NCBI RefSeq assembly: GCF_020150455.1
Contig: NZ_CP083740.1
Span: forward strand, 2,790,001-2,854,000
Direction: 5' to 3'
DNA from: Bremerella sp. TYQ1
GTDB lineage: Bacteria > Planctomycetota > Planctomycetia > Pirellulales > Pirellulaceae
DNA length: 64,000 nt
The position numbers were made by a program, and so were the translations under genes. The notes below the pieces were generated by a model. The model saw nothing but the letters and a program-made list of their open reading frames with translations, made no database searches and had not been told where the DNA came from. Position 1 is the first letter of the stretch; every line of letters begins with the position of its first letter. This document shows positions 32,471 through 62,249 of the stretch, in pieces.

Positions 32471-32812
32471 ATGCGGAACATGAGCTGCGCTCTAACGAAA
32501 ACCCAGATTCGCGACGGATCGAAAACGGTAACGCGTCGCGATGCATGGTTGAAGCTGCAGGCCGGCGATCTGTTGCGGCCAGTAAATAAAACGGTGGGTT
32601 CCAAGAAGGGGGAGCGACCGCACCCCCTTCTGCCCGTCGGGCACCATTTGCGCGTGGTATCGGTCCGCCGCGAACCGTTGGAGGCGATCACGCAAGAGGA
32701 CGTGATCGCCGAAGGCTTCTCCGAGATGACGCCGGCCGCACCCAAAGCATGCACAGCGAATACAATTGCGCAGCAATGCGCTGTGAGGAGCATAGGTGAA
32801 GGTTCGGCTTGA
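32471..32812 (+). pseudogene. ASCH-family phage protein, truncated by integron relic
   Basis: The first 89 or so residues match phage ASCH proteins: MRNMSCALTKTQIRDGSKTV, then TVTRRDAWLKLQAGDLLRPV and RVVSVRREPLEAITQEDVIA, up to GFSEMTPA. Family members continue with an EF...M helix and a CTPDT...RIEF end. Here the match stops at about 32738 and unrelated residues follow to a chance stop. The break coincides with the start of cassette DNA, so the gene was split by an insertion. ASCH folds bind RNA or nucleotide-like ligands. The missing 3' end was not found nearby. Confidence 0.65.
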
Positions 32813-32848
32813 GCACCTTGCTGAGTGAAACTGCGTACTTCACGATTA

Positions 32849-33298
32849 CTAGACTTCTTTGTCTAAGACTATAACGACCTTAGAATCACCCAGCTCATTA
32901 ACAACGCCTGTAATATTGAACCCTTTGCGTATATTCAGGATGAGCATTTCTTTAAATTTATTTTCAGTGTAGGTCCTGACTAATCGATAGCCTTTCTCTT
33001 TTGCCCATGCATGTTGCAAATCCATAAGATGACTAGCAACACCTTTTTCTCTATATTCTGGAACCACACCACCATTCCAACTGTAGAAAATCCTCGATGT
33101 CATTTCGTAACCAAGCTTAAAGCCAATAGGTTCCCCGCCCGAAAAGGCGATTAAACTATATAGTCCGGGTTTAACAGAGGCCTCTCTTGTAATTTTTTCC
33201 CTAGAGTATGGTTCATCAAAGACTTTGCTCTCGAGCGAACAGACTAAGTCGATAAGCTCATCACTCACACGAGAATAAGACTTAAATTCTATTTTCAT
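32849..33298 (-). CDS. GNAT-family N-acetyltransferase on an integron cassette
   Basis: A 149-residue GNAT enzyme. Motif A, which binds the acetyl-CoA pyrophosphate, reads VVPEYREKGVASHLMDLQHA (about residues 78-97), preceded by SRIFYSWNGG and followed by YRLVRTYTENKFKEML. GNATs move an acetyl group to amines; the substrate is unknown. The gene is visibly AT-richer than the phage DNA around it and begins 20 bp after the attI core, the normal place for an expressed cassette gene. Confidence 0.75.
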   Translation of the reverse strand: MKIEFKSYSRVSDELIDLVCSLESKVFDEPYSREKITREASVKPGLYSLIAFSGGEPIGFKLGYEMTSRIFYSWNGGVVPEYREKGVASHLMDLQHAWAKEKGYRLVRTYTENKFKEMLILNIRKGFNITGVVNELGDSKVVIVLDKEV

Positions 33299-33317
33299 AG
33301 CGACTCACTTATTCACA

Positions 33318-33362
33318 CCCAACTAGTATTTATTCAGAACCGCTCCGAATACCGTGCGCACG
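33318..33362 (-). other. attI-like recombination site, copy 1
   Basis: On the minus strand the integrase end is followed by an inverted repeat (TCCGAATA ... TTCGGA, one mismatch), GGTTCTGAATAAATACTA and then GTTGGGT, which fits the integron core consensus GTTRRRY. The same sequence up to GTT is found at 61778-61819 with a different cassette beyond, so the junction falls at the GTT core. Confidence 0.65.
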
Positions 33363-33546
33363 TTATTCGGAATCCAGGCTATCAAAATCAGCCGGGCTGC
33401 GGACGTCGCGTCCTCCCTGGTTCAAAACATGAGTATAAATCATCGTCGTCCTAACGTCACTGTTGCCAAGGAGTTCTGTACCACGCGGATGTCGTAGCTA
33501 TTTGCCAGTAAATGCGTGGCAAACTAATGCCGGAATGTGTGGCTTT
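33363..33546 (-). pseudogene. Integron integrase 3' fragment, copy 1 (broken)
   Basis: The minus strand encodes the end of an IntI/XerC-like recombinase: SHTFRH, an in-frame TAG where Ser is expected, [16 protein letters not shown], then after a frame change [19 protein letters not shown] and [12 protein letters not shown] before the stop. MIYTH carries the catalytic Tyr. The stop codon and frameshift show it is dead. Further upstream similarity to copy 2 resumes at 33661-33746. Confidence 0.75.
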
Positions 33547-33893
33547 TGACTCACTTGGTCAAACGGGCTTTTGGACCGCCGAGCTTCAAACATGCTCAGG
33601 ACGAACCGACACTGTTTACAAAGTTCTCGTGATCCACACGTCTCTGGTTATGCCCCCCGGTCTAGGTTCTTCCCTGGGGGTGGTCGAAGTCGACCCCGAC
33701 GGGAACAGTCGAAAAACGGGACTTTGTTTCTTTCCGTGTCCGCCCGTCCGGCGGCAAGCCAGGCAAAACGCGAAAGCCAGGGGCCGAAGCTGCCCCGCGA
33801 TTTTCCGAATAGATCAAAGAAAGCTGCTAAAACGTCTGGACTTCTGTACATGCTGGTGCCTATCTTGGTGGGCGTTATCCATAGGGGCAGCTT
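33547..33893. other. Non-coding DNA between integron relic 1 and the phage genes
   Basis: Contains an 86-bp block (33661-33746) that recurs at 62062-62147 with few changes and may be an older part of the integrase gene; read on the minus strand it gives FRLFPSGS and TPREEP, similar to the central part of integron integrases. The rest up to the next gene shows no support for coding. Confidence 0.45.
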
Positions 33894-34079
33894 ATGAAGA
33901 TCGATCTGGAAGATCGTGAGTCGATCGTTTTCCTGGGGAAACGAATCATTAACGACGCCGGCCGGAAGATCCGCCTGGTAGTTTTGAACGAACCTGGCGA
34001 ACAGATCCAAGTCGATCGCCGTAAGTTCCCCAAGAAGGGAAAGGCACCGCCGCCAATCCCGAAAGCCACCGCGATCTAA
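33894..34079 (+). CDS. Small beta-rich unknown protein
   Basis: A 61-residue basic protein (IDLEDRESIVFLGKRIINDA, IRLVVLNEPGEQIQVDRRKF) that resembles the size and strand pattern of small RNA-binding regulators such as CsrA, but lacks the CsrA motifs. It is the first phage gene after the integron relic and is followed by a terminator. Confidence 0.5.
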   Translation: MKIDLEDRESIVFLGKRIINDAGRKIRLVVLNEPGEQIQVDRRKFPKKGKAPPPIPKATAI

Positions 34080-37349: not shown

Positions 37350-37508
37350 ATGTCCATGAAGAAGGCCGCGGAGCTGCTGAAAGTCGATCGGTCCGTTGTG
37401 GTCGAATTGGTGGCGCAAGGATGCCCACGCAATAAGGACGGGACGATCAACGTCTATCAGCTGGCCGCCTGGCTATTGCTGCGCACCAAGGGGGGACCGA
37501 TTGGTTAG
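37350..37508 (+). CDS. Small HTH protein, possible terminase small subunit
   Basis: A 52-residue protein (MSMKKAAELLKVDRSVVVEL, then PRNKDGTINVYQLAAW) with a Nu1-like excisionase-type HTH. It overlaps the terminase large subunit by 8 bp, exactly where the small DNA-binding subunit belongs. It may start 24 bp earlier at a TTG. The hairpin at about 37228-37302 (GGCCGCCGCGG/CGCGGCGGCC with T-tract) lies upstream. Confidence 0.5.
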   Translation: MSMKKAAELLKVDRSVVVELVAQGCPRNKDGTINVYQLAAWLLLRTKGGPIG

Positions 37509-39789
37509 CTTGAATATCGACGCGGCCGAATTGTTGGCAAGAGTCAACGATGCCGGCCTGGGCAAAGTGATCGACGCGCGGACGCTGCGACGGCACCGCG
37601 AAGAATGGGAGCTTGGCAAGTCGATCGACCTGGGAACCTACGTAGGGCACCTGGTCGAACGGTACCAGGCCAAGCAAACCCAGTCGACCAACTACGAAGC
37701 CAAGAAGGACCGCGCACGCGATCGCAGCGCGGAGGCCTCCAAGAAGGGCCGCGATATTGGACCGCTGCCCGAAGTCGTGGATCCGGAACGCCGCGAAGCG
37801 TGCCGATACGATCTGCGTTTGTTCTTCGATACCTACATTAAGCCCGAGGGGTTCTTCGCCTGGTCCGAAGATCATCTGGCCTGCTTTGAAACCGCACAAA
37901 ACGCGATTTTAACCGGCGGCAATTTCGCGTTGGCGATGCCCCGCGGATCTGGCAAGACCACGATTACCGAAGCCGCTGCCCTATGGGCGATGCTGTTTGG
38001 CCACGTCAAGTTCTGCGTGATCATCGGAGCAACCAGCGAGAAAGCCGAAGCCCTTCTCGAGACGATCAAGACGTACCTAGTAGCGAAGGAGCTGCTGGTC
38101 GAAGACTTTCCCGAGGCCTGCTTCCCGATCGTTAAGCTGGAAGGCCAACCCAATCGCTGCCGCGGCCAGCTGTGCAAAGGCGAACGCACCCAAATAAGTT
38201 GGCATGAAGACGAGCTCGTTTTTCCAACGATCGAAGGCAGCGAATGCAGCGGCGCGATAATCCGGACGTTCGGCATCACATCGAAGGGCATCCGCGGCCA
38301 GAAGTACACCAACGCCAACGGCGACACGTTCCGGCCTGACCTGGTGCTGCTGGACGACCCGCAAGACGATGAAGCGGCCGCCAACCCCGCGCAAGTTCGC
38401 AAACGCGAGAAGGTGATCAACGGCACGATTCTTGGCATGGCGGGGCCTGGTAAATCGCTTACTGCGATTATGCCTTGTACGATCATCGAACCCGAGGACC
38501 TGGCGGCGCGATTCCTGGACCGCAAGCGGAACCCCGAATGGCAAGGGATCCGCGTCCAAATGCTCAAGTCGATGCCGACCAATGAGGCGAAGTGGGAGGA
38601 GTACTTCGAGATCCGACGGGCCGACCTGGAAGCGGGCCTCGGCGTCGAACGTGCCAACGCGTTCTATATCAATCACCGCGAAGAATTGGACCGCGGCGCG
38701 GTCGCCTACTGGGAAAGCCGGTACGATCCTGGCGAGATCTCCGCAATTCAACACGCGATGCACCTACGCGACCGCGACCCCGCTACGTTCGCCGCGGAAT
38801 ATCAGAACGACCCGATCAGCGCGGAAACGGTCGACCTGATTCTGGTGACCGCGGACCAAATCGCGGCCAAGGTTCATAGCTACCGCCGCGATCAAATCCC
38901 ATTAGATGCCGAGAAGGTGGTCGGCTACGTCGACTTGCAGTTGCGGCTTCTCTATTACGCCTTGGGCGCGATGCGTTCCGACTTCACTGGCCACATTCAC
39001 GATTACGGGACCTGGCCGAAACAGCCAACGAAGTACTTCGTTTATGGGCCGAAGGTCGCCAAGCCAATTCAAGGGCACCGAACCGAGGAAGGGATTGTGC
39101 TAGGCGACCTATCGGAAGAAGCCCAAATTCGCCAAGCGCTCGAGATCCTGATCAACCAAGATCTGATGCTGCGAACCTGGAAGCGTGAAGGCGACGGCGC
39201 AGAATTTCAGATTGATCTACTGCTGATCGATATGGGCAACTGGACGAATATCGTTAAGCAGTTTATCGCCGAGTCACCGCACCGGGCGCGACTGATGCCG
39301 AACAAGGGGAAAGGCGTCCTAGCCAAAGAGAAGAAGATCAGCGAAACGGTTAAGAAGCCAGGCGAAGAGATTGGCGAGGAATGGATCATTCCACGCGCCC
39401 GAGGTCGGAACGCGTTGCGGCATATCATCCACGACACCAACCACTGGAAAAGCGCCCTGCAGAACCGTTGGAAGTCGCCAATCGGCCAGCCTGGTTGTCT
39501 AACGCTGTTCAATGCTAAGCCATTAGAACACCGGATGATCTCGGAACATTGTTCGGCCGAATTCGCCACTCGCGTCAAAGCGAAGGGCAACACGGTCGAC
39601 GAATGGGGGCTCAAGCCGAACCGCGACAACCACCTTCTCGACTGCGTTTCTGGTTTGCATGTGGCCGCAAGCCGTAAGGGCTGCGCCGTGCCGTCGGCCG
39701 ACCTGATGAAAGCGAAGCCGAAAAAGAAAAAGAGCGGCAGCCGAACGAAGCTAAGCGATCTACGCCGGCAGAAGCAGATGGGGGGCTAA
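37501..39789 (+). CDS. Terminase large subunit
   Basis: A 762-residue DNA-packaging motor. The ATPase domain shows FALAMPRGSGKTTITEAAAL (Walker A, about residue 140-160), an adenine-related segment, and DLVLLDDPQDDEAA (Walker B plus catalytic Asp, near 280). The C-terminal part contains VVGYVDLQLRLLYYALGAM, a nuclease-like start with the Asp after G-Y-V. The TTG at 37501 overlaps the upstream small gene; a long N-terminal helical extension precedes the ATPase. It cuts and pumps DNA into the procapsid with the portal below. Confidence 0.85.
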   Translation: MVSLNIDAAELLARVNDAGLGKVIDARTLRRHREEWELGKSIDLGTYVGHLVERYQAKQTQSTNYEAKKDRARDRSAEASKKGRDIGPLPEVVDPERREACRYDLRLFFDTYIKPEGFFAWSEDHLACFETAQNAILTGGNFALAMPRGSGKTTITEAAALWAMLFGHVKFCVIIGATSEKAEALLETIKTYLVAKELLVEDFPEACFPIVKLEGQPNRCRGQLCKGERTQISWHEDELVFPTIEGSECSGAIIRTFGITSKGIRGQKYTNANGDTFRPDLVLLDDPQDDEAAANPAQVRKREKVINGTILGMAGPGKSLTAIMPCTIIEPEDLAARFLDRKRNPEWQGIRVQMLKSMPTNEAKWEEYFEIRRADLEAGLGVERANAFYINHREELDRGAVAYWESRYDPGEISAIQHAMHLRDRDPATFAAEYQNDPISAETVDLILVTADQIAAKVHSYRRDQIPLDAEKVVGYVDLQLRLLYYALGAMRSDFTGHIHDYGTWPKQPTKYFVYGPKVAKPIQGHRTEEGIVLGDLSEEAQIRQALEILINQDLMLRTWKREGDGAEFQIDLLLIDMGNWTNIVKQFIAESPHRARLMPNKGKGVLAKEKKISETVKKPGEEIGEEWIIPRARGRNALRHIIHDTNHWKSALQNRWKSPIGQPGCLTLFNAKPLEHRMISEHCSAEFATRVKAKGNTVDEWGLKPNRDNHLLDCVSGLHVAASRKGCAVPSADLMKAKPKKKKSGSRTKLSDLRRQKQMGG

Positions 39790-39792
39790 TCG

Positions 39793-39984
39793 ATGTCGAC
39801 CAATGGCCAGGCCGTGAAAGTTCAAGCAGAACCGTCGGATGCTTCCGGCGTGCAATGTCCGTCGTGCGGATGCGGTCACGCGCCGGTTTATTACACACGC
39901 CGGCGACTAAAGAAGACGGTCCGCGTCCGGATCTGCCGGAATTGCAATCGCAAGTTTTCCACTACCGAACGCGTTTCAGGATGA
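39793..39984 (+). CDS. Zinc-ribbon protein, Ogr/NrdR-like
   Basis: A 63-residue protein with CPSCGCGHAPVYYTRRRLKK and RICRNCNRKFSTTER, a four-Cys ribbon with the basic strand pattern of Ogr/Delta late activators and NrdR. In P2-like phages such proteins activate late genes; in satellites they hijack the helper. Here it follows the terminase by 3 bp. Confidence 0.65.
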   Translation: MSTNGQAVKVQAEPSDASGVQCPSCGCGHAPVYYTRRRLKKTVRVRICRNCNRKFSTTERVSG

Positions 39985-39995
39985 TTGACCGCAAG

Positions 39996-41516
39996 TTATT
40001 GCGAAATCTCTCTCATGTTAGGAAGTTCCTTGTACGTTAAATCGTTTCGAAGGGTTTCCGTTAAATTGCCTGCTTTCAATTCCACGGAGATGGGAAAAGT
40101 GTTCGGGAAAGCAATTGAGCGGAAAAGGTTCGCGTAGTTTACGTTTGCCGACTCGACGGTTGTCGAGGCAGTACCGGAAAGACTGCGATTCTCGAGTGTT
40201 GTAGCAGCGGTGTGATTTTTCCGTAGGAGAAACTCAAAGAGTTCTTTCTCATGCTGATCAATTGCCACCTCAATTGTGTTTTGAACTACCTCCTTAAAGT
40301 CATATTGGTAGTCGCTCAATGGGTCTTTTGAGGAGACGTATCCTCTGACTGGCAACACTAGATCTTTTTGTGTGTCGATAACGTAAATTTGATTTGACTC
40401 AGACTGAACAAAGATCAAATGCTTTCGTTTTCCTTGTGGAAACACGTACGCCTTTTGGACTCCTGCCTGGCCAGTTGCTTGACGAGAAATTGCACTGAGA
40501 ATGTCATCATCGCTGAGAGTTGTAGCTTGATTCGAATTGCTATTTGAGGGCGACGCAGTGGACAATCCTAGAGATTTCATGCCCGGGATTTTGGTGTATG
40601 GGACGCTAATAAAGAACTTCTTTGTGACACTTCCAATGCTTAAGCGTGCGTTGACGGTGCACTGGCTCTCAAAATAGCTTGGTTTTCCTTCTACGACTTC
40701 TAGTTTGACTGGCTCTTTAGAAGAGATGTTAGTTGCTTTGAAGGCTTCCAGTTCACTTTGCCGAAGGGAGCCGATTATTGCTTCTTCCAATTCGCTCTTG
40801 TTGTGCCGAAACGCGTTTGACATCATTTCAGTTATTTCATTGAGGTATTCTTTACGGGCTTCTCCCGTATACGCTGGCAGTACAGTGTCACTATTTCGGT
40901 CGACATAAAACGCTTCACCACTATCGGCCAGATAAAACCCTTTCGAGCGAACTTTGGAGTTAGGTAGTCCATAGACTTCTCGAAAGGGATTCTTGGCAAC
41001 TCGCCGAATTGCCTTGGCTATAAATTCGGCGTCATCGTCAGCGGCTGAAGTTTGCTTTCCGGTAGGCGGAGCTGTTGAGGTCGACACAGTCGGCCCAGAA
41101 TTAGAATTTAATTCTGCCCGGATTAGTTGGACCAATTCGCTTTTCAAGGCTTTACGATCTTCCTGAAGGGCTTCTGCAATCTGTTTAGCTTCATTTGCGA
41201 TAGAAGAAGATTCGGAAGCTACTTTTTGCAGATTCGTGGTTTCTACGGAGAACCTTTCCTGGCCTGTCTTGATTTGATCGAAGTCTTGCATAACTGCTTC
41301 GACTTTAGACTGTACTTTTTTGCTGGTATTTGAGCCGGCATTTACTGCATCGGCAATCTTCTTCTGATTTTCCTCGATTCGAGTTAAACGCTCAGATTGT
41401 TCATTTTGTAGTCGCTCGAGCTTTAAGTTCCACAATCCAAATACCATTGTTAGAACACCGAACAATACGACGTTTACAATCACGGCGACATATCGTCCGC
41501 CCGAAGCCGCAGACAT
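39996..41516 (-). CDS. Membrane-anchored coiled-coil protein with duplicated domain (cargo gene)
   Basis: A 506-residue protein on the opposite strand to all neighbours and visibly AT-richer. I chose the ATG at 41516 because AAGGA lies 7 bp before it. A membrane segment (VAVIVNVVLFGVLTMVFGLW, residues about 10-29) leads into a coiled coil of about 110 residues (LERLQNEQSERLTRIEENQK). Two related beta-alpha domains follow: one contains GEAFYVDRNSDTVLPAYTGE and the other NQIYVIDTQKDLVLPVRGYV, each followed by a helical pair. Function unknown; its insertion between packaging and head genes suggests a lysogenic accessory gene. Confidence 0.6.
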   Translation of the reverse strand: MSAASGGRYVAVIVNVVLFGVLTMVFGLWNLKLERLQNEQSERLTRIEENQKKIADAVNAGSNTSKKVQSKVEAVMQDFDQIKTGQERFSVETTNLQKVASESSSIANEAKQIAEALQEDRKALKSELVQLIRAELNSNSGPTVSTSTAPPTGKQTSAADDDAEFIAKAIRRVAKNPFREVYGLPNSKVRSKGFYLADSGEAFYVDRNSDTVLPAYTGEARKEYLNEITEMMSNAFRHNKSELEEAIIGSLRQSELEAFKATNISSKEPVKLEVVEGKPSYFESQCTVNARLSIGSVTKKFFISVPYTKIPGMKSLGLSTASPSNSNSNQATTLSDDDILSAISRQATGQAGVQKAYVFPQGKRKHLIFVQSESNQIYVIDTQKDLVLPVRGYVSSKDPLSDYQYDFKEVVQNTIEVAIDQHEKELFEFLLRKNHTAATTLENRSLSGTASTTVESANVNYANLFRSIAFPNTFPISVELKAGNLTETLRNDLTYKELPNMREISQ

Positions 41517-41828
41517 TTTCAAATCCTTCGCGTAGGGGGTGGCTGGCATCGCCGAATAGTATGTCTCCAATTGAGAGCCGTTGCAACTTAGGTTTTTAAT
41601 AGCCCGAATAATCACGATTCATCGAATCTGAAACGAGCTTTACTTTCAATCGTTCCAGATATGGAACGCAAATAGGAAAACGGCCGCGAAGGGGCCGATT
41701 CGATCTAACCAACGCCGCCGCGAAGTCGTAAGACGACCATCTACCCAGCGCGGCAAAGGGGGGCAATCTTGCGAGATCGCCGAAGCCGCGCGTTCTTTTA
41801 TTCACGCGTAGCGATCCAAGGGGCAAGG

Positions 41829-42029
41829 ATGGCCAAGACGAACCAAGAAGCGATCGAGCAGCTGGAAGCGGCAGCAACCAAGCCGAAGCAAGTCACCGTC
41901 GACGGCGTGACGGTTCAAGGGCATTCGATCGCGGATCTAATCGCGTTAGATAAACACATTGCCGCCAAGAAGGCGGCCCAACGTGGCGGGATGCGGATTC
42001 AGAAGATCGTCCCGCCTGGTACCGCGTAG
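41829..42029 (+). CDS. gpW-like head-tail joining protein
   Basis: A 66-residue protein starting MAKTNQEAIEQLEAAATKPK, with VTVDGVTVQGHSIADLIALD, the small fold and size of lambda gpW-type joining proteins. It lies directly before the portal gene (11-bp gap), in the same place as in lambda. The ATG follows GGGGCAAGG. Confidence 0.7.
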   Translation: MAKTNQEAIEQLEAAATKPKQVTVDGVTVQGHSIADLIALDKHIAAKKAAQRGGMRIQKIVPPGTA

Positions 42030-42040
42030 GAGCTGCCGAC

Positions 42041-43555
42041 GTGGTACAAGCCAATAAGTCATATAGCCCGATTCTAGGAAGCAACGGAAAGCCGATGGTG
42101 CGCGAGCCGTCGGCGGGTGTGATTGCACGGCAGCGGGAAAAGATCCAGAGCCTACGCGCGAAATATGACGCGGCGGTTACCAACTTCGACAACATGAAAC
42201 ACTGGGCGAATGCGGACAATCTTTCCGCGTCGTCTGCAGCCAACCCAGACGTGCGGCGTCGGCTGCGATCGCGTGCCCGTTACGAGTGCCGCGAAAACAA
42301 TAGCTTCGCCAAGGGAATGATCGACACGCTGGCCAACGATATCGTCGGCCGCGGTCCGAATCTGCAGATCCACAACGCAGGCCAGGAAGCGGCAGCGAAG
42401 CAGCTCGAGCGGAACTTCCGCCGCTGGATGAATCGAATCGGCTTGGCACCTACGCTACGAACGGGGATCACTAGCGAGGTTTCCGACGGCGAGATCTTCG
42501 CCGTTGCGGTCAACAACCCCAATATCCGGAATGGCGTCCAATTGGACGTGAGGCTTCTTGAGGCGGATTACTGCAGCGACTTCGGCGGCATTCAAACGGT
42601 CGATTATGACGACGGGATCGAGTACGACAAAAACGGTTACCCGGTCGCCTACAACTTTCTGAAAGATCACCCCGGCGACAACTTCGCCGGCGTAAGCCAT
42701 TGGGAAACCAAACGCGTCTTGGCGGACAAGGTGGTACATTACTTCCGCCAAGATCGACCAGGCCAACGCCGCGGTATTCCATGGGTTACGCCCGCGCTTC
42801 CGCTGTTCGCCCTGATGCGTCGCTATACGCTGGCCGTCACGCTGTGCGCTGAGACGGCCGCCCGCTATTCCGGCGTCATGTACGCCGACGGCAACCAGGT
42901 GGTGCCCGACGAAGATGTCGACCCGATGGATTCGATCGAATTCGAGATGAATTCCATGTTGACGTTGCCGATGGGCTGGAAGCTGGGACAGCTGAAAGCG
43001 GAACAGCCAACGACGACGTACCAGATGTTTCGCGATGCTTTGCTTTGCGAGATCTCGCGATGCCTCAACATGCCTTTCAACAAGGCCTCGGGGAATTCGA
43101 GCGGCTACAACTTCGCCAGCGGCCGCCTTGATCATCAAACCTATTTTGAATTCGTCGACATCGAGCGAAGCAATCTGGAAACGCGTTTCTTAGATCGCGT
43201 CTTCCGCTGGTGGATTGACGAGGCCGTTTTCATTCCTGGCGAGATCCCGCCCGGTATCGGCCCGATTGATCAGCTGGACTATAGCTGGCGATGGCCAAGC
43301 CATCAGCACATCGATCCGCAAAAGCAGGCCGCGGCCGACCTGATTCTGTGGAACGCGGGCCTTCTGACGGATGAAGAATATCAGCTCAAATCTGGCAACG
43401 ATCCAGAAGAGTACTATGCGAGCCTGGAACGAATGTACAAACGCCGATCGGCGATCGGTGCCCCTCTGCCTGGCTTCCAACAAGGAGCCGGCCAAGATCC
43501 AAACAACGACAACGAAACCAACGAAGAAGAGGCGGCCGCCGATGACAACGCGTAA
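42041..43555 (+). CDS. Portal protein, lambda family
   Basis: A 504-residue portal starting at GTG. It shows RRRLRSRARYECRENNSFAK and GMIDTLANDIVGRGPNLQIH, then EVSDGEIFAVAV and GYPVAYNFLKDHPGDNF. A DNA-channel and crown region follow (FRDALLCEISRCLNMPFNKA, then NSSGYNFASGRLDHQTY). It forms the dodecameric ring through which the terminase packs DNA and to which the tail attaches. It overlaps the next gene by 14 bp. Confidence 0.9.
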   Translation: MVQANKSYSPILGSNGKPMVREPSAGVIARQREKIQSLRAKYDAAVTNFDNMKHWANADNLSASSAANPDVRRRLRSRARYECRENNSFAKGMIDTLANDIVGRGPNLQIHNAGQEAAAKQLERNFRRWMNRIGLAPTLRTGITSEVSDGEIFAVAVNNPNIRNGVQLDVRLLEADYCSDFGGIQTVDYDDGIEYDKNGYPVAYNFLKDHPGDNFAGVSHWETKRVLADKVVHYFRQDRPGQRRGIPWVTPALPLFALMRRYTLAVTLCAETAARYSGVMYADGNQVVPDEDVDPMDSIEFEMNSMLTLPMGWKLGQLKAEQPTTTYQMFRDALLCEISRCLNMPFNKASGNSSGYNFASGRLDHQTYFEFVDIERSNLETRFLDRVFRWWIDEAVFIPGEIPPGIGPIDQLDYSWRWPSHQHIDPQKQAAADLILWNAGLLTDEEYQLKSGNDPEEYYASLERMYKRRSAIGAPLPGFQQGAGQDPNNDNETNEEEAAADDNA

Positions 43556-45848
43556 ATTTTCCAACCTGTTTGGTTTGCTGCCAATATTGCACGCCGGCGG
43601 AACGGCCGCGGCTGGTCTGCCTAATGCACCGACCGAGCTTCCCGAAGTTCTGACGCTGGAAGCCGAAGGCGACGTGGAATGGATCAAGGCCAACGGCGAA
43701 GAGGATGGCGACGAAGGCGCGGCGACGCCCAAGTTTTCGATGGTGGCTTATCGCGGCGGCAAGATGCGGCCGGCAGGCTGGGGCGGCGATGTCGTGCTTG
43801 ACCTGGCCGGTACCACGATCGCGAAAGGCAAACGGCCCGCGCTCTACAACCACAATTCCCAAACGCCGGTCGGTCATTTCGAGGACGGCGGGATCCAGAA
43901 CAACGGAAAGCAGATCAAGGCCGAAGGCGTTCTTTCGGTCGAGTCTGACGAGCAACGCAAAATCATTCAATCGAGCCGCGCCGGCTTCCCCTGGAAGTCT
44001 TCGATCGGTGCCGCGCCCGATTGGTCGAAGATCGAGTTCGTCGACGCGGGTGATTCGCGACGCGTCAACGGAAAAGTACAACGCGGCCCATTTACCTATG
44101 TGAAGGCCGCCCAAGTCCACGAAGTTTCTTTTGTCACGATCGCCGGCGATGACACGTCTAGCGCGGCCGTGAAAGCCAACCGATCCATGGAGGGATCTCA
44201 CACGATGACTTTTGAACAATTTCTCGAGGCCAACGGCTACGACATCGAAACGCTGACCGAAAAGCAGCTCAAGCCACTACGCGCGGCTTGGAAGGCTGAA
44301 TTGAAAGCCAGCGGCGACGATGGCGGAAACGATTCCGACGCGGAACCTGGCAACACGCGCCGCGAATTGAACGCCGGCGGAAACACCCAAACCAATCAGC
44401 AACCCGAAAACGAGCTTCCTTCGCTTGCTGACCAGCTGCGAGCCGAAGGGGCTGCCGAAGTGGAACGCCAAAGCAAGCTGCGCGGGCTGTTCGCGGGTGC
44501 TCAGTTGCCAGAAGATCGACGCGGCGAATTGCTTGCCCAAGCGATTAGCGAAAACTGGAACAACGACCGCGCCGAGCTGGAGATCCTACGAGCTGGCCGA
44601 GGCGACGTTGGCAACGGCGGCCAGGTTGCAATTCACTCCCGCAATAAGAACCTGACCGCCGGCGCGTTGTCGGCATCGGTCGCGCAGACGATCGGCGTAC
44701 CGGAAGAGATCGCGGCCCGCGGCGTGTCCGAGAAGGATATGAACATTGCGGCCGAAGCCGAAAACCGCGGCTTGACCCTTCACGCCCTGATGGACGTGAT
44801 CTTCCTGAAAGCCAACGGCTATCAATACAGCGGCAACCGCAAGTCGCCTGACTTCGTGCGTGCCGTCGGCCGCGCTGATCGTCAGCTGGCCGCCGCTGGG
44901 TTCTCTTCGAGCTTGAACGCTTCCGGCAACACCACGATCAGTTTGACCGGGATCTTGGGCAACGTCGGCAACAAGGCCATGCTGGCCGCGTTTGAATCGG
45001 TCGAGACGGTTTATCAACAACTGTGCCGCATGGCCAGCCATTCCGACTTCAAGCCGCGGTCGACTTACCGCCTTGATATCGATGGTGGTTATAAGCTGGT
45101 TGGCCCTGATGGTCTGTTGAAGCATTCCGAAATGTCGGAAACCGGATTCACCGCGAAGGTGGACACCTACGGTACCATGCTGACGCTGACGCGCCAGGAC
45201 ATGATCAACGACGACCTGGACGCGTTCGCGCAGATCGCGACCCAGTTGGGCATCATGGCCGGTACCGTGATGGAAGAAGTCTTCTGGAAGTTGGTCCTGG
45301 GCAACTTCAACAACTTCTTTAGCGTCGCCAACAAAAACAAGCTTTCCGGCGCGCAATACTCCTTGGGAATCGAAGGCCTGCAGAAGGCGGTCTCGGCGTT
45401 TAACAAGCGAGTGAAAAAGGACGGTTCGCCGATCCTACTTTCGCCAAAGAAGATCGCCGTCGGCACCTTGCTGGAAGACACGGCCAACGACCTCTACGTC
45501 GAAAAAGACGTTCAAGTTACCGGCACGGCCAGCAAGAAGTCGATCGCGTCGAACCGCCACCGCGGGAAGTACATGCCGGTCGCGTCGCCTTATCTCGACA
45601 ACGAGGACATCCGCGATCGAGAAGGGAAAGCGATTCCGAATCAATCGGCTTCGAAGTACATCTTGTTTGCCGATCCGAAGAACCGCGCCGCCTTCGTGTG
45701 TGCCACGCTCAACGGCAACAACTTGCCCACGATTGAATCCGACGAATCGGCGTTCAACACGCTGGGCATGCAATGGCGCGGCGTGCATGACTTCGGCTTC
45801 GGTGAAGGCGAGCCAGAAGCCGCCTTGGAAGTCGACGGCACCGACTAA
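43542..45848 (+). CDS. Head protease - major capsid protein fusion (Mu gpT-like capsid)
   Basis: A 768-residue polyprotein. Residues about 60-215 are a prohead protease of the U35/S78 type: ALYNHNSQTPVGHF with the active His, PWKSSIGAAPDW with the active Ser, and VHEVSFVTIAGDD. A Glu/Ala/Gln-rich scaffold-like region runs from about 220 to 360. The C-terminal 400 residues resemble Mu gpT capsid protein (AAFESVETVYQQLCRMASHS, then ETGFTAKVDTYGTMLTLTRQ, ending LPTIESDESAFNT). Usually these are separate genes; in the fusion the protease must cut itself and the scaffold free. Confidence 0.8.
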   Translation: MTTRKFSNLFGLLPILHAGGTAAAGLPNAPTELPEVLTLEAEGDVEWIKANGEEDGDEGAATPKFSMVAYRGGKMRPAGWGGDVVLDLAGTTIAKGKRPALYNHNSQTPVGHFEDGGIQNNGKQIKAEGVLSVESDEQRKIIQSSRAGFPWKSSIGAAPDWSKIEFVDAGDSRRVNGKVQRGPFTYVKAAQVHEVSFVTIAGDDTSSAAVKANRSMEGSHTMTFEQFLEANGYDIETLTEKQLKPLRAAWKAELKASGDDGGNDSDAEPGNTRRELNAGGNTQTNQQPENELPSLADQLRAEGAAEVERQSKLRGLFAGAQLPEDRRGELLAQAISENWNNDRAELEILRAGRGDVGNGGQVAIHSRNKNLTAGALSASVAQTIGVPEEIAARGVSEKDMNIAAEAENRGLTLHALMDVIFLKANGYQYSGNRKSPDFVRAVGRADRQLAAAGFSSSLNASGNTTISLTGILGNVGNKAMLAAFESVETVYQQLCRMASHSDFKPRSTYRLDIDGGYKLVGPDGLLKHSEMSETGFTAKVDTYGTMLTLTRQDMINDDLDAFAQIATQLGIMAGTVMEEVFWKLVLGNFNNFFSVANKNKLSGAQYSLGIEGLQKAVSAFNKRVKKDGSPILLSPKKIAVGTLLEDTANDLYVEKDVQVTGTASKKSIASNRHRGKYMPVASPYLDNEDIRDREGKAIPNQSASKYILFADPKNRAAFVCATLNGNNLPTIESDESAFNTLGMQWRGVHDFGFGEGEPEAALEVDGTD

Positions 45849-45874
45849 GCCGAACGGCTAACCGTTCAAATCTG

Positions 45875-45900
45875 ACGCCGCGGCCAGGCCGCCGCGGCGT
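45875..45900 (+). terminator. Weak terminator-like hairpin after the capsid gene
   Basis: A 9-bp stem ACGCCGCGG/CCGCGGCGT with an 8-nt loop followed by TCCTTTC. It may lower transcription after the highly expressed capsid gene. Confidence 0.5.
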
Positions 45901-45946
45901 TCCTTTCACGAATCAACCAAGCCAAACCATTTAGCGAGATAGAGCA

Positions 45947-46306
45947 ATGAGCTTCGAAGCAAAGTTTGACAGCGGCGACCCGTTGATGGTCGACCACGTA
46001 CCAGCCGCGGCCGTTGCCGCCGGCGAAGTCGTCGTCCTGGCCGATACGGTCCGAATTGCCCACCGTGCCATCGCGGCCGGCGAAAAAGGCGCGTTGGCTG
46101 CCTGCGGTGGAACGTATGTCGTTCCCAAGGCTGCCGGTGGATCCACCGCGATCGCCGACGGCAAGAAGGTTTATTGGGACGACGCCAACAACCGAGTCAC
46201 GGCGACCGCGTCGACCCACAAGCGTATCGGCTACGCCGTAGGCGCTTCGCTGGACGCCGACACCAGCCAGGTGATTGAACACGCACCTGGACCGGCCGAA
46301 GCGTAA
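45947..46306 (+). CDS. DUF2190-type capsid decoration protein
   Basis: A 119-residue beta-rich protein: PLMVDHVPAAAVAAGEVVVL, then RIAHRAIAAGEKGALAACGG and GKKVYWDDANNRVTATASTH with IGYAVGASL. This is the compact barrel of DUF2190/gpD-like decoration proteins that trimerise on the capsid surface. Its position right after the capsid gene agrees. Confidence 0.8.
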   Translation: MSFEAKFDSGDPLMVDHVPAAAVAAGEVVVLADTVRIAHRAIAAGEKGALAACGGTYVVPKAAGGSTAIADGKKVYWDDANNRVTATASTHKRIGYAVGASLDADTSQVIEHAPGPAEA

Positions 46307-46389
46307 GCCAAAGCAATCGAGGGGCAACGCGTCCGCGTCGGTTTGGGGGGATGGCCGGCGCGGCGCGTTGATACCTGGGGAACGAATCA

Positions 46390-47233: not shown

Positions 47234-47250
47234 CCAGGGAGGGCAACCCG

Positions 47251-47727: not shown

Positions 47728-47807
47728 CGCCAGGCGTTTGACCTGGCGGAACCTTACCGCACAACAACCCGTTTTTTTGAATCTCTAACCTTTGAGGAAT
47801 TGAAGCC

Positions 47808-47972: not shown

Positions 47973-48082
47973 TCCAATAAAGGAGGCCTGGCCGCCGGCC
48001 AATGCGGCCCGCGGCAGGCCTTCCCCATTGCACGCAAACCATCCACCAAACCAACGAGGGAATGCCTAGGCGTTCGGTAACC

Positions 48083-48607: not shown

Positions 48608-48903
48608 CGGCCGTTTGCCAATTGGAACCGGACCGACGCGGGAGAACGCTTCGCGAGCTGGTTTGGATGAGCCACCAACGCGGCAAGCATGAGTGGCACC
48701 AAACGGCCTTGCTGGCTTCGATCCTGATTAACGCCAACCGCGATTCCAAGAAGCAGCGGCAGCCGATCGATCCGGCGCAACTCAATCCCTACATCGAAGA
48801 GAAGCCGCGCAGAAGCGAAGGCGTTCGCGTTTGCAAAGCTAACCGGGACATTATCAAAAAACTATGTAGCAAACGGGGCGGCAATGTCATCGGCAAAACT
48901 TAG
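48586..48903 (+). CDS. -1 frame extension of the tail chaperone (gpGT-like)
   Basis: A frame lacking its own good start continues from the chaperone: ILYELAAVCQLEPDRRG, then RTLRELVWMSHQRGKHEWHQ and ILINANRDSKKQRQPIDPAQ. TLRELVWM and the HEWHQTALLASI helix are typical of the T domain of phage tail chaperones. A slip of -1 at GGAAAA (48587-48592), with the preceding T giving TGGAAAA, fuses both parts into a protein of about 273 residues. The stop at 48605 is 13 bp further on. Confidence 0.7.
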   Translation, partial: WKILYELAAVCQLEPDRRGRTLRELVWMSHQRGKHEWHQTALLASILINANRDSKKQRQPIDPAQLNPYIEEKPRRSEGVRVCKANRDIIKKLCSKRGGNVIGKT

Positions 48904-49429
48904 CTTCAACGTAAACATGCGAATGAAGCAGATGTTTTTCGATCGGCCGGCTGTGATTCGATCAATTGAACCGGGCAAGCTGCGAGTTCTTCGCACGCAC
49001 GCGGGATCGATCCGAAAGACGGCGCGGCGTTCGATGAAACGCGTGTCGAAGGCAGCGAAGAAAAAGGCCGCCCGGTTAAGGGCCGAAGCGATTCAGCGAG
49101 GCGACCGCACGTTTCGAGATCCGACGGTTAGCAAGCCAGGCCAACCGCCCAAGATCCACACCGAGGGGGACTTCAACCCGAAGCGTATTTTGTTCGGCTA
49201 CGACACCAACACGGATAGCGTCGTCGTCGGACCGATTCGGACCAATTCACGACACAACGCGGTCGAGACGTTGGAGCATGGCGGCAGCGTCCCGATTTAC
49301 ATGGGGCGGCGACGAAAACGAAAGCTAATCAAAACGGTCTACATACGAGCGAGGCCGTTTATGGGACCGGCAGAAGAAGAGATGCGGCCGGAATTCGAGG
49401 CGGCATGGGCTGACATTCAGCAAGTTTAG
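48884..49429 (+). CDS. HK97 gp10-like tail protein
   Basis: A 181-residue basic protein (RKTARRSMKRVSKAAKKKAA, then SKPGQPPKIHTEGDFNPKRI and HNAVETLEHGGSVPIYMGRR, with a RPFMGPAEEEMRPEF end). The ETLEHGG turn and the RPFMGPAEE end are family features of HK97 gp10-like connector and minor tail proteins. It overlaps the chaperone frame by 20 bp, just before the tape measure. Confidence 0.65.
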   Translation: MSSAKLSFNVNMRMKQMFFDRPAVIRSIEPGKLRVLRTHAGSIRKTARRSMKRVSKAAKKKAARLRAEAIQRGDRTFRDPTVSKPGQPPKIHTEGDFNPKRILFGYDTNTDSVVVGPIRTNSRHNAVETLEHGGSVPIYMGRRRKRKLIKTVYIRARPFMGPAEEEMRPEFEAAWADIQQV

Positions 49430-49531
49430 CGCAACGCTGCCGCGTCGAATCCGTTAGGGAACGATACGGCGGCAACCAGGCGGGAAACCGCCTAACGAAG
49501 AGACGCGAACCAAGGAAGGAACGCGGGGGCA

Positions 49532-51595
49532 ATGGCAACGGGGGGAGTACGAGCGGGCGCGGCCTTTATCGAGCTGTACGTTAAAAACGGCTTGGATAAG
49601 GGACTACGAAAAGCACGCGCGAAGCTGCAGACGTTTTCGAATAGCGTCCAAAATATTGGGCGCAATCTGACTAGCGTTGCCGCGGTGGGCGCTGCCCCTC
49701 TAGCGATTGCGGCCACGACTTATGCGAATTTCGCCGACAAGATGGCCGAAGTTCGAGCCGTTACCGGGGCAACCGAGCGGCAGTTCGGCCAGCTGGAGGC
49801 GAAGGCGCGAGAGCTGGGGGCAACCACCAGCTATTCGGCCAGTCAAGTCGCCGAAGCAATGAAGTTCTTAGGGATGGCCGGCTTCAATCCTGACCAGATC
49901 ACGGCCGGGATTCCTGCCGTCTTGAACCTGGCTCGAGCGGGATCGACCGACCTGGCCACGGCGGCGGATATCGCTTCCGACGTTGGATCTGCCTTCGGGC
50001 TAACCGCTGACGAGCTGGGGCACGTGGCCGACGTGATGGCGACGACGGCATCGAGCGCCAACACCTCTATCGAAATGATGGGCGAGACCCTCAAGTATGC
50101 CGCGCCGCTGGCGAAGGCAGCTGGCCAGTCGATCGAGGACACGGCCGCGGCGATCGGCGTGCTGGGCAACAACGGTATCAAGGCGAGCATGGCCGGTACC
50201 GACATGGCCGAAATCATGAAGTCGATCGGCAGCAAGTCGGTTAAAGGGATCGAGGCGATCGGCGTTAAGACTAGCGACGCGGAAGGGAACATTCGCAATC
50301 TGTTAGACGTGATGAAGGATATCGGCGCGGCGACCGCGGAAATGGGACAAGCCGAACGCCTGGCGTTCTTTGAAGCGAGCTTCGGCCGCGCTGCCAAGTC
50401 GGCTTTGATCTTGGCTGATTCCGGCGACGCAATGGATGACCTACGGAAGAAGATCGACGGCGCCGAAGGATCCGCGGCAGAGATGGCCGCAATGATGGAC
50501 GACAACTTGGGCGGTGCGTTCCGTCGGTTTATGTCGGCATTCGAGGGCATGCAAATCTCCATCGGCAAAGCGTTGGACGGTCCGCTGCAGGATTGGATCA
50601 ACTGGGGCGGCGAGGCATTGGGATCGATTGAGGCCTTCATATCAGCCAATCCTCAACTCGTGACATCGATCGCGGCAATTATCGCGATCGCGGGCGCGGC
50701 TGGCGTTGGTTTTCTAGGCCTGGCGTTTGTTCTAAATATCGTCGTCGGCGCCATAACGGGCGTGGTGACTGTCGTGGGCGTCCTATCGTCGATCATTGGT
50801 TTATTGTTCACGCCACTTGGGGCTGGCATCGCGATCTTGGCCGCCTTGGTGATTGCCTTCACCGATTTTGGTTCGGCCGCAAACGCGGCATCGGGAATGA
50901 TTGCCGACGCCTTCAAATATGTAGAAGACACGGTCAACCCGATTCTGGAATCGCTTTTAAATGCCCTGCGATCAAGCGACTGGGAATTGGCCGCGAAGAT
51001 CTTATGGCAAGGCGTGAAGGTTGTCTTCCTGGATTCGATGGCAGAGATCTCGAAAGAGGTCGAGATCTGGAAAGAAGGCCTAACGTCGGTACTGAAAGAC
51101 GTGGCCTCTTTTAATTCGATGATTGCCGGCGGGCCTCTGCTTGAAGGTTTTTGGCATGACCAGATCGACACCGCGGCCGATATGGTTGGGGCAACTTCCG
51201 AAGGCATCGAAATAGAAGGCAAACGTGCCCGAAACATTTTGGAGCAACTGCAGAAAGAGGCCAACGAAGCGGGCAAACTCCAGAGCATCTTAGACGGCCT
51301 GCCAGGTGTTTCGGCCTATGGATTGGAGGACTTGGAAGGTAGCGAAAAACTGGATGCGGTCGCCGATATTGCCGACGCCAAACCGCAGATTGAATTGCCG
51401 GACTTGGAAGGCGTCGGCGATCAAGTGGCGAAGGCCTGGGAGATGGCCGTCGGTACGTCTAATAGCTTTGCGGTCGATCGCATTGGCTTACAAGCGCGAC
51501 CGATGGAACGGGTCGAAAACGAGCTGCGAGAAGTCAACAACAAACTGGCCGAATTGGTCGAACAAGGGGAGGACGCGGACACGTTCGCGGAATAG
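49532..51595 (+). CDS. Tail tape-measure protein
   Basis: A 687-residue tape measure of the TP901 type: SVAAVGAAPLAIAATTYANF, FADKMAEVRAVTGATERQFG, LEAKARELGATTSYSASQVA, then AMKFLGMAGFNPDQI and AAAIGVLGNNGIKASMAGTD, followed by two hydrophobic stretches (about residues 375-440). It sets tail length and passes through the tail during infection. It is relatively short, so the tail should be short to medium. It has no resemblance to the tape-measure-like gene of element A. Confidence 0.9.
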   Translation: MATGGVRAGAAFIELYVKNGLDKGLRKARAKLQTFSNSVQNIGRNLTSVAAVGAAPLAIAATTYANFADKMAEVRAVTGATERQFGQLEAKARELGATTSYSASQVAEAMKFLGMAGFNPDQITAGIPAVLNLARAGSTDLATAADIASDVGSAFGLTADELGHVADVMATTASSANTSIEMMGETLKYAAPLAKAAGQSIEDTAAAIGVLGNNGIKASMAGTDMAEIMKSIGSKSVKGIEAIGVKTSDAEGNIRNLLDVMKDIGAATAEMGQAERLAFFEASFGRAAKSALILADSGDAMDDLRKKIDGAEGSAAEMAAMMDDNLGGAFRRFMSAFEGMQISIGKALDGPLQDWINWGGEALGSIEAFISANPQLVTSIAAIIAIAGAAGVGFLGLAFVLNIVVGAITGVVTVVGVLSSIIGLLFTPLGAGIAILAALVIAFTDFGSAANAASGMIADAFKYVEDTVNPILESLLNALRSSDWELAAKILWQGVKVVFLDSMAEISKEVEIWKEGLTSVLKDVASFNSMIAGGPLLEGFWHDQIDTAADMVGATSEGIEIEGKRARNILEQLQKEANEAGKLQSILDGLPGVSAYGLEDLEGSEKLDAVADIADAKPQIELPDLEGVGDQVAKAWEMAVGTSNSFAVDRIGLQARPMERVENELREVNNKLAELVEQGEDADTFAE

Positions 51596-56833: not shown

Positions 56834-56837
56834 CGAC

Positions 56838-60028: not shown

Positions 60029-60127
60029 GTCAAACTTCCAGACAGCTAATCTCGCTCACAAATGACACGCCCTCCTTGGGCATTTTTAAATGCGGGCTTT
60101 ACAGCGATCAGCCAAGTACCTGGCAAG

Positions 60128-60218
60128 AGAACGACCCAAGCTCAGCGACCCGGCCCACGAGCGCGTTGGATTGCAACCGGAGCGAGATGGCCGGGTTCGC
60201 TGCAGCCCATGGTTAGGC
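60128..60218 (-). repeat. attC-like site of cassette 2
   Basis: On the minus strand it begins GCCTAAC, a perfect fit to the RYYYAAC core. Imperfect inverted arms follow: GCAGCGAACCCGGCC against GGCCGGGTCGCTGAGC, with an unpaired base as in true attC hairpins. The far core is degenerate. Confidence 0.6.
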
Positions 60219-60225
60219 CGCGTTG

Positions 60226-60605
60226 TCATGTCGTATCTCTCGCAACTCCGAAGACAAGCCGCTTGTAAGCTCGCTGCGGTGTATCGGTCTCCGGCACGCG
60301 CACACGCACGTAGCCCCAGAATCCGTCGCGATGAAAGAGCGCGAAGTAACCATCGAACTCTGACTCGCTCGCCTGCTGTCCGCGACCTGGCACGATGCCA
60401 TCGACCCAATGTGGACGGCGGTCGGCCCCCAACTGCGCTGCAACTCCTGAACCGCAGCGTCCGCTCGGTCATGAATGCCGCCATCAGGTGCTGGATGCTC
60501 AATGCTACCGACATGCTCCTGAATCACACGCTCCCGAACACCAGAACCATCGGAAAGCTCGGTGATGAGTTCCTCCATGACCTGCGTTGCGGATGAGTGC
60601 GACAT
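60226..60605 (-). pseudogene. Cassette 2 gene, frameshifted unknown protein
   Basis: The 5' part reads MSHSSATQVMEELITELSDG and continues to about VQELQ; the 3' part in another frame reads GADRRPHWVDGIVPGRGQQA, then FDGYFALFHRDGFWGYVRVR, ending KRLVFGVARDTT. Each part has protein-like composition only in its own frame, and the switch near 60425 needs one frame change. Thus a gene of about 125 residues with a frameshift, assuming no sequencing error. No family is recognised. Confidence 0.5.
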
Positions 60606-60609
60606 AGCG

Positions 60610-60700
60610 GGCTAACGACGGCGATAACGGGGCCGCCGCCAAAAAACCATGATTTAAAATCCCGCGTGATCGGCGGCTCCCGTTCACCGCTTGGTTATGC
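60610..60700 (-). repeat. attC site of cassette 1
   Basis: On the minus strand this 91-bp site starts GCATAAC (containing the TAA stop of the cassette gene) and ends GTTAGCC. Between them AACGGG pairs with CCCCGTT and CCGCCG with CGGCGG, with unpaired bases, giving the hairpin expected of integron attC sites. Confidence 0.75.
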
Positions 60701-61762
60701 CATTTCGTCCTCGGGATTGGTGTCATTGGTAGTCACGGTAGCCTCGCGCTCACGGCGCAGTCGCTGCCCGCGGCTCCTTCGTTCTGACTCGAGGCGTTGA
60801 CGCTGCTCCGACTTGCATTTGTTGTATGCGGCAATGAAGTTCGTCGTGAGCGAGGACAGCCATTGCACATTGTCAATCGCGTCATCCGCGATTGGCTCTC
60901 GTTGCATCGTCGTCATCACCAGCGTGCCCCAGAAGTCGTTCGGCGTACAAACGACACGTATCGGCACCGTAATCACTCGGCGAAAATAGACATCGTTTGC
61001 AGGGGACTGTATTGTTCCATAAAGTTGGTGATGTTTGTCAAGCGAGTATTCGTCGGGAACGTGATTAGACCAAGCCATAACCGCAGGATGGCGATCACCC
61101 ATGCGTAGCGCTAATTCTTCATTTACGCGTTCCGAAGCATAGAAATACCAAAGGCCAAGAGATGTGTTCCCAAGCGTGGGACGATCCACCTGGCCCTCTT
61201 CAAGTTGCGTCCAGTCAATCGTAATGTCGTCGATTTGGTTGACATCCAAGTAAACCTCGATGGTGTAAACGCGATCCGTAATGCCCAATACGCGATCAAT
61301 TGTGGAGCGTGTTGGGGCAAAGACGTGATCCAGCAATTGTTGAAATTCATTTTCGCACCACCCGCTAACGTTGCATACTTGCGCGTTGTATTCGTCGAAT
61401 GACGCGCGAAGAGTCTGGTGGACTTCGGACTTTCGTCTAATCCCTTTGCGAAGTTCGGCGATATCCGTTCGTAATGTGGCATCATCAATTGTTGAGTGTG
61501 TGTTTCCACGCCGAAGTGCCGCGATACCAAACACAAGTTGTAGTCCCGTGCAGACCACAAGCAGAACAATCGTGATTGTGATATTCAGTCGGTCGGGAGT
61601 TGACGCATACAATTGAGTGACGAGCGCGTTCCCGAGTAGGCCCAAAAAGACTGGCATTACAAATAACGCCACAAGCTCGAGCCACCAAACAACGTTGCGC
61701 GCAGACGCCAATTCCTTTCGGACTTCGTCTGCAGCGTCAGGATTTAGTCGAATGTCAGACAT
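60695..61762 (-). CDS. Cassette 1: membrane-anchored protein with GAF-like end
   Basis: A 355-residue protein. Two membrane helices (VVWWLELVALFVMPVFLGLL, about residues 22-41; ITITIVLLVVCTGLQLVFGI, about 60-79) lead to a helical linker and a C-terminal sensor-like domain: RRVITVPIRVVCTPNDFWGT, GTLVMTTMQREPIADDAIDN, then VQWLSSLTTNFIAAYNKCKS, the closing strand-helix pattern of GAF domains. The basic tail is Arg-rich. The first ATG (61777) lies in the attI core; the second at 61762 is used here. Cassette position and attC are clear; function is not known. Confidence 0.6.
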   Translation of the reverse strand: MSDIRLNPDAADEVRKELASARNVVWWLELVALFVMPVFLGLLGNALVTQLYASTPDRLNITITIVLLVVCTGLQLVFGIAALRRGNTHSTIDDATLRTDIAELRKGIRRKSEVHQTLRASFDEYNAQVCNVSGWCENEFQQLLDHVFAPTRSTIDRVLGITDRVYTIEVYLDVNQIDDITIDWTQLEEGQVDRPTLGNTSLGLWYFYASERVNEELALRMGDRHPAVMAWSNHVPDEYSLDKHHQLYGTIQSPANDVYFRRVITVPIRVVCTPNDFWGTLVMTTMQREPIADDAIDNVQWLSSLTTNFIAAYNKCKSEQRQRLESERRSRGQRLRREREATVTTNDTNPEDEMA

Positions 61763-61777
61763 TGCAGTTTTGGGCAT

Positions 61778-61819
61778 AACTAGTATTTATTCAGAACCTT
61801 TCCGAATAACGTTCGCACG
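61778..61819 (-). other. attI-like recombination site, copy 2
   Basis: Right after the integrase stop a TCCGAATAACGT/ACGTTATTCGGA hairpin (12 bp, 4-nt loop) is followed by AGGTTCTGAATAAATACTA and the GTT core. It is almost identical to copy 1 until GTT, then different cassettes begin. Confidence 0.65.
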
Positions 61820-61976
61820 TTATTCGGAATCCAGGCAGTCGAAATCAGCCGGGCTGCGGACGCCACCGCCTCCCTGGTTCAAAATATGAGTATAAATCAT
61901 CGTCGTCCTAAAGTCACTTTGACCAAGCAGTTCCTGTACCGTACGGATATCATAGCCCGCCTCGCAATGAGCTGAG
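61820..61976 (-). pseudogene. Integron integrase 3' fragment, copy 2
   Basis: The minus strand encodes, in one frame, [20 protein letters not shown], then [20 protein letters not shown] and ADFDCLDSE before TAA. MIYTH holds the catalytic Tyr, and VRSP is the usual end of IntI-type enzymes. The region with HTFRH is missing, so this is only a 3' remnant. It is less damaged than copy 1. Confidence 0.75.
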
Positions 61977-62249
61977 CCCTCGAACTTCATGCACGCAAAG
62001 GACGAGCCGACCTGAGTCTCGAACCCTTCGGTAATTTGCTCGCAATTCGTACTGCCCCTGGGCTAGGTTCTTCCCTGGGGGTGGACGGAGTCGCCCCCGA
62101 CGGGAAAAGTCGAAAAAGGGGACTTTGTTTCTTTCCGTGTCCGGCCGGACAAATCGAATCAGGCAACAGAAATTGACTTACCCAGAACACCAAGCTGAGA
62201 ATGACGACACATCATTTCCGGTGACAGGTCGGAATCGCTCAAAGTGTGC

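Follow-up and report, generated by a model that had tools for sequence, protein, structure and literature searches.

Two decayed integrons in a tRNA-Asp prophage of Bremerella sp. TYQ1, likely copies of an integron platform of the genus

The stretch of DNA analysed here, hereafter the window, comprises 64,000 nucleotides (nt; coordinates 1 to 64,000) from the genome of Bremerella sp. TYQ1, which is assembled as one contig of 6,657,864 bases. Its minus strand holds two integron relics, seen as 156-nt direct repeats (33321-33476 for relic 1 and 61778-61933 for relic 2) with 89% identity, which can be extended to 33321-33498 and 61778-61956 at 87%. As a preliminary description of this DNA had noted for both places, each relic presents, in the same order, the decayed C-terminal end of an integron integrase gene (intI), a hairpin across the stop codon, and a short attI segment running up to a GTT (Table 1). 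The junction had been called identical, which holds for the last 21 nt, while three differences are found within the last 34 nt up to GTT. The stop-codon hairpin of relic 2 folds better than 200 of 200 shuffled sequences (z -4.49), and that of relic 1 better than 196 of 200 (z -2.53). Exactly past GTT, the two relics part company, as had also been described, with a GNAT acetyltransferase-like gene in one and a gene for a membrane protein with a GAF-like part in the other.

The decay of both integrases is equally clear from the sequence. The match to the integron integrase family TIGR02249 covers positions 273-313 in relic 2, and in relic 1 it is divided into positions 251-286, with a TGA and a TAG inside, and 283-313; the window contains only such C-terminal fragments of IntI. 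In the TYQ1 genome, we found neither a third copy of the repeat (E <= 0.001) nor an integrase above the TIGR02249 cut-off of 265 bits. A full-length integrase with the same C-terminus, which the preliminary description had suggested searching for in the host genome, is encoded in another species of the genus (G002), as an open frame of 345 amino acids (aa) that scores 446.5 bits and has Vibrio IntI4 as its nearest solved chain (2a3v, E 1.6e-93). Other genera of the same family encode full-length IntI at up to 67% identity, and the best named relatives come from metagenome-assembled genomes of Planctomycetota (66%) and Pirellula (61%). It is extremely improbable that the relics are not integrons at all, but remnants of plain Xer-type or phage integrases beside chance hairpins. 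Although tyrosine recombinases are not easily told apart by their C-terminal fragments, and weak TIGR02249 matches were also obtained in 14 of 14 control genomes, the full-length relative lies far above the cut-off, and 48 further attC sites were found downstream of this sequence family. Neither of the two outcomes that the preliminary description had named as contrary to an integron origin, a plain Xer-type element with no attC sites elsewhere and an attC that does not fold, was observed.

Relic 2 retains two cassettes, each with an attC site. The first attC had already been proposed and does fold, and the second, also foldable, was absent from the preliminary description. The 360-aa protein of the first cassette has two predicted membrane-length helices, a coiled coil and, according to a weak model, a GAF-like part; in its structure model (mean predicted local distance difference test score 61), GAF-like folds rank top with E 0.007 and none reaches 0.001, a weak indication. 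It has nine database entries, two its own and the rest 54-84% identical. The array ends in a conserved segment, here called E, that follows the last attC in 12 loci of this and related genomes and starts at the attC GTT in 10 of them, the attC having been chosen by eye. We trained an attC covariance model on 11 sites, 10 of them picked by eye just before segment E, plus 60613-60700, and both window sites belonged to this training set. Over the window and 19 loci of relatives, the model recovered the 11 training sites and 48 more, in 20 sources, all of them on the array strand of their locus. In the RNAalifold consensus, 12 of 12 pairs show changes on both sides that preserve pairing, in an alignment fitted to the model, which favours this outcome.

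The situation in relic 1 is different in that no attC was found with the covariance model, even at E up to 10. Folding of 32735-32870 likewise revealed no site (z -0.93, with 29 of 200 shuffles equally good), and the cassette end that had been proposed here is unproven. For relic 2, where attC is present, the earlier claim of direct evidence for cassette exchange is justified; for relic 1, with no attC left, such an exchange is an inference. The GNAT gene starts 22 nt past GTT, and the putative cassette stretch runs to a truncated phage gene near 32738. The GNAT gene has no matches in the eight other genomes of the genus (E 1e-8), and the 60 genomes searched gave five remote ones (31-41%); in a protein database, its product matched itself and one relative at 45%. 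The truncated gene (32471-32740), which matches PHROG 874 and is cut off at the start of the cassette stretch, is presumably ASCH-like.

Both relics lie inside a single 41.4-kilobase (kb) prophage-like element inserted at tRNA-Asp (26194-67567), and the earlier placement of the integrons in and beside a prophage is correct as to the former and not the latter. The element is bounded by direct repeats of the tRNA end, the second of which lies 3.5 kb beyond the window end (67514-67567; L205:3514-3567), and it encodes an integrase and structural phage genes. A related phage occupies the same tRNA-Asp in another genome of the comparison (G006), with other DNA (8.6 kb) at the place of relic 1. A 93-nt repeat, D7, lies upstream of both relics in the same orientation. 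The repeat is part of the phage, the copy at 33654 being continuous with the late module, also in G006, G008 and G004; the left flanks of D7 look unrelated in nine aligned copies, as judged by eye. Outside the window, D7 occurs in G006, G008, G004 and G005, and G006 and G004 have an extra inverted copy after the portal gene, bracketing part of the late module.

Table 1. Features of the two integron relics and of the surrounding prophage-like element, in window coordinates
Feature	Coordinates	Strand	Evidence
Relic 1, putative cassette: GNAT acetyltransferase-like gene, 149 aa	32849..33298	-	PF00583 E 1.7e-07
Relic 1, attI; hairpin 33344-33372, GTT 33323-33321	33321..33393	-	
Relic 1, intI C-terminal pseudogene, two frames, with stops	33387..33574	-	TIGR02249, translation
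Relic 1, 5'-end repeat GTCGGTTCGTCC, one mismatch to GACGGTTCGWCC	33599..33610	-	sequence
Relic 2, segment E: conserved 3' array end with terminator-like hairpin, begins at GTT of last attC	60058..60133	-	
Relic 2, attC of cassette 2, GTT end at start of E	60129..60218	-	47.8 bits; fold
Relic 2, cassette 2: 130-aa open frame, no family match, coding status uncertain	60213..60605	-	
Relic 2, attC of cassette 1	60613..60700	-	92.6 bits; fold
Relic 2, cassette 1: 360-aa predicted membrane protein, possibly GAF-like; ATG directly past GTT	60695..61777	-	
Relic 2, attI; hairpin 61800-61829, GTT 61780-61778	61778..61850	-	
Relic 2, intI C-terminal fragment, internal deletion joins it to intI upstream end	61844..61966	-	TIGR02249 57.4 bits
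Relic 2, conserved upstream (5') platform end, with 5'-end repeat 62000-62011	61960..62014	-	matches region upstream of intact intI in L054
attL: 3' part of tRNA-Asp, exact 54-nt repeat of 67514-67567	26194..26247	+	tRNA-Asp 26169-26243
Phage-type tyrosine integrase of the tRNA-Asp element, 323 aa	28558..29529	+	PF00589 E 1.7e-12
D7 repeat beside relic 1, continuous with phage late module	33654..33746	-	
Late phage genes: terminase 37396-39789, portal 42041-43555, head/protease 43371-45848, tape measure 49532-51595	37396..51595	+	PHROGs
D7 repeat beside relic 2, 91% to other D7	62055..62147	-	

The relics belong to a sequence family that is found throughout the genus. With 391 nt of relic 2 as a query, a search that may overlook distant copies, we obtained matches in 44 of 147 relatives, including all nine genomes of the genus. 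The copies that we examined amount to 23: 19 in the eight other genus genomes, two in the window, and one each in two genomes of another genus (G026 and G087). Platforms of this kind are present in nine of the nine genus genomes searched, in at least 21 copies and at least two per genome, and a full-length IntI was found in only one of the nine (G002), one of these genomes being only 68% complete. In each platform, intI and the cassettes are read in the same direction, with intI running towards attI. Two types of attI exist: type A, that of the relics, with 17 copies and the end ...TGAATAAACACTAGTT, and type B, with six copies, in which the shared IntI C-terminus is followed by a different and longer end. 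Fifteen of the 17 type A copies end in GTT and diverge after it, in keeping with an attI that ends in GTT; the exceptions have TTT (L068) and GTA (L070). Mean pairwise identity is 93% over the final 34 nt as far as GTT (14 copies of type A, without the intact one) and 30% over the first 30 nt past it (15 copies). The stretch upstream of the intact intI (L054) is also conserved and is present upstream of relic 2. Among possible carriers, no exact match to the attI pattern was found in IMG/VR and no match to the attI stretch in phage records; in plasmid records, the attI stretch matched once, partially, where an integron integrase is annotated. In IMG/VR, 52 contigs (L152-L203) encode relatives of integron integrases.

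We consider it likely that the two relics are decayed copies of this genus platform that were seeded separately in the tRNA-Asp prophage after the platform had spread. Each would derive from a copy in which intI was read towards attI and the cassettes, and a working integrase would have added different cassettes to each attI, at its GTT. Internal deletion, frameshift and stops would later have ruined the integrase genes, with the attI ends remaining. As far as sequence comparison goes, the platforms probably spread among species after these had parted, and decayed later, because 14 of 14 type A copies in the genus show higher identity to the intact platform (87.6-97.2%) than the host flank shows between species (78-84%, measured at a single locus of about 500 nt). 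Measured against the majority of the 17 copies along a stretch of about 178 nt, the intact copy has one difference and the others have 4-18, with few changes shared. Among the 19 loci fetched from relatives, a test in which the window was not included, one pair (L054/L066) shares its flanks, and this site is empty in the other seven of nine genus genomes, where the flank halves lie 3-78 nt apart. The exact platform ends could not be derived from this empty site, as the neighbouring intergenic sequence is too diverged.

A competing account is vertical inheritance from the ancestor of the genus, in which the likeness of the copies would reflect long selection on the IntI C-terminus and attI. It would fit the presence of at least two copies in each of the nine genus genomes, and attI does change less than the rest. 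In 14 type A copies, the non-coding part of attI deviates from the intact copy at 21 of 588 bases, compared with 72 of 637 third codon positions and, for first and second positions together, 77 of 1252; that is, 3.6% versus 11.3% for attI and third positions (Fisher 2.3e-7, and 0.025 against first and second positions, p-values that are too small since the copies were found by the same sequence and are related by descent). This count omits the intact copy as well as L062 and L069, in which the hairpin is deleted and attI differs at 7 of 14 and 6 of 12 bases. The low rate of change would be as expected if attI were still used or doubled as a promoter region, and selection on the coding and attI stretch is a partial alternative to late spread. 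Nevertheless, vertical inheritance appears very unlikely, given the single shared locus among the 19 fetched, the emptiness of that locus in seven of nine genomes, and the close copies in two genomes of another genus. Moreover, third positions in the 14 copies, most of them broken, are 11.3% off the intact copy, which is less than the 16-22% seen in the host flank at all sites.

As to the relation between the two relics, the nearest copy to relic 1 is a relic of another species (L052, 92.1%), followed by the intact copy (91.5%), and the nearest to relic 2 is the intact copy (93.8%), whereas the relics are 87.6% identical to each other over about 178 nt. Several points weigh against the favoured account as a whole. 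Three of them speak for the possibility that one relic was copied from the other within the prophage, or through exchange between two related phages, followed by decay and the acquisition of different cassettes: a D7 copy is found about 45 nt away from either relic, the relics share one derived base, and enforcing their sisterhood costs 3.6 log units with a p of 0.056 in the approximately unbiased (AU) test, which fails to reject it. In addition, the tree (17 copies, 178 columns) has no well supported branch, with 13 of 14 inner branches open, and its star shape partly reflects a lack of signal; the host yardstick is a single locus, and the compared coding and attI stretch is constrained, so that recent spread may be overestimated from the high identity; the lack of an intact integrase in the TYQ1 genome refers to one assembly, judged 96.5% complete; and the GNAT gene is placed as the putative cassette of relic 1 by its position. 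We nevertheless regard copying as unlikely: both relics have closer matches among copies from other species than in each other, the shared derived change stands against 14 and 10 in all, the internal deletions differ, and the spacers of roughly 45 nt that separate D7 from the platform show hardly any resemblance. The duplication that the preliminary description had put after cassette exchange is accordingly unsupported, and even disfavoured, by the comparison of copies, and the relics were more probably seeded separately from a common functional platform than one from the other.

Tentatively, and at lower confidence, the platform may be viewed as a dispersed repeat family, in which a few intact sources seed new loci, including prophages that could carry the platforms further, and most copies lose the integrase through internal deletion and keep an attI usable in trans by an integrase located elsewhere, by analogy with non-autonomous elements that exist beside an autonomous one. 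The unit would comprise the upstream end, intI, attI, the cassettes and E, with GACGGTTCGWCC at its ends. With two mismatches or fewer allowed, this 12-nt repeat precedes 13 of 15 platforms, and 5 of 12 E segments have it 23-31 nt further on; it is not found after the E of relic 2, and two of the five right-hand repeats are shared with a following platform. As a genome-wide repeat it was rejected, as its 76 matches in nine genomes, against 64 for a reversed control, show no overall enrichment, and its presence at platform ends is a lead only. In the tandem platforms of L059 and L068, about 30 nt at most separate the E of a platform from the upstream end of its successor. The possibility that E, the upstream end, intI and attI form one cassette hopping between GTT sites was discarded, since other platforms have no preceding E or attC. 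Seven copies, of both attI types, share one deletion junction, which in the dispersed-family view would mean that already broken platforms moved; a recurrent deletion at the 5-nt repeat CGAGG found at the joint explains it too, and we did not use the junction as proof. Integrons are usually taken as sedentary unless carried by a transposon or plasmid. Here, the platforms are scattered over numerous unrelated loci, a single intact integrase is found in at least 21 copies, and attI is better preserved than the sequence of the integrase; the genus would permit testing the spread of platforms as units and the service of orphan attI sites in trans, and the tRNA-Asp prophage with its two relics is one possible carrier.

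Several of these features have parallels in known systems. Integrons in prophages are, as had been remarked, unusual, although there is a precedent in the cryptic Shewanella prophage M16-3, which holds an integron plus a CALIN (PMC9892861). As in our case, that prophage has two cassette arrays, each with an attI of the same type and different cassettes; in contrast, one of its integrons has an intact IntI (PMC9892861), while here both are decayed, intI runs towards attI, and host and attI are unrelated. A CALIN is a set of attC sites without a working integrase, as defined for IntegronFinder (PMC9892861, PMC12444791). With two attC sites and no functional IntI, relic 2 has at least the two that a CALIN requires, and relic 1 falls short of this, according to our own attC model rather than IntegronFinder; here, however, attI and an integrase remnant are still attached. 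In Treponema, intI is also transcribed towards attI, in the same direction as the cassettes, but the system there was lost from lineages (PMC3607928), unlike the many dispersed platforms, nearly all with broken intI, in this genus. Similarly, intI genes broken by stops, frameshifts and large deletions, with arrays that stay, are described for Xanthomonas (PMC12444791) and for intI pseudogenes in general (PMC2426708), and multiple intI copies per genome are already known (PMC12444791, PMC2426708). The Xanthomonas platform is ancestral and lies downstream of ilvD with few exceptions (PMC12444791), whereas here only one of the 19 fetched loci pairs between species. Finally, in the delta-attI-type cassettes of mobile integrons, an attI outside its usual place takes part in recombination (PMC12901181), but in our case attI retains an intI remnant. 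Integrons in prophages and decayed intI genes are already in print, and the newer part is the dispersed platform family with its conserved 3' end, of which we found no report in the literature examined, in a search that was not exhaustive.

Other genes of the tRNA-Asp element include one for a metallo-beta-lactamase-fold protein beside relic 2 (62250-63266; PF00753, 1.1e-13, with a weak ComEC-like match) and an N6 DNA methylase-like gene that adjoins attR (66004-67362, L205:2004-3362; PF02384, 2.7e-11). A 667-aa protein (56811-58814) consists in part of repeated units spaced by about 198 nt (56939-58584) and is perhaps a tail protein. Elsewhere in the window, a 45-nt repeat of a tRNA-Pro end (8809-8853 and 16935-16979, 98%) surrounds 8.1 kb resembling a small integrative element, which codes for a protein of 462 aa (15359-16747) carrying an N-terminal AbiJ domain (PF18860, 2.4e-40), and arrays of the 8-nt repeat AACGGGCA are found at 11191-11294 and 14835-14919.

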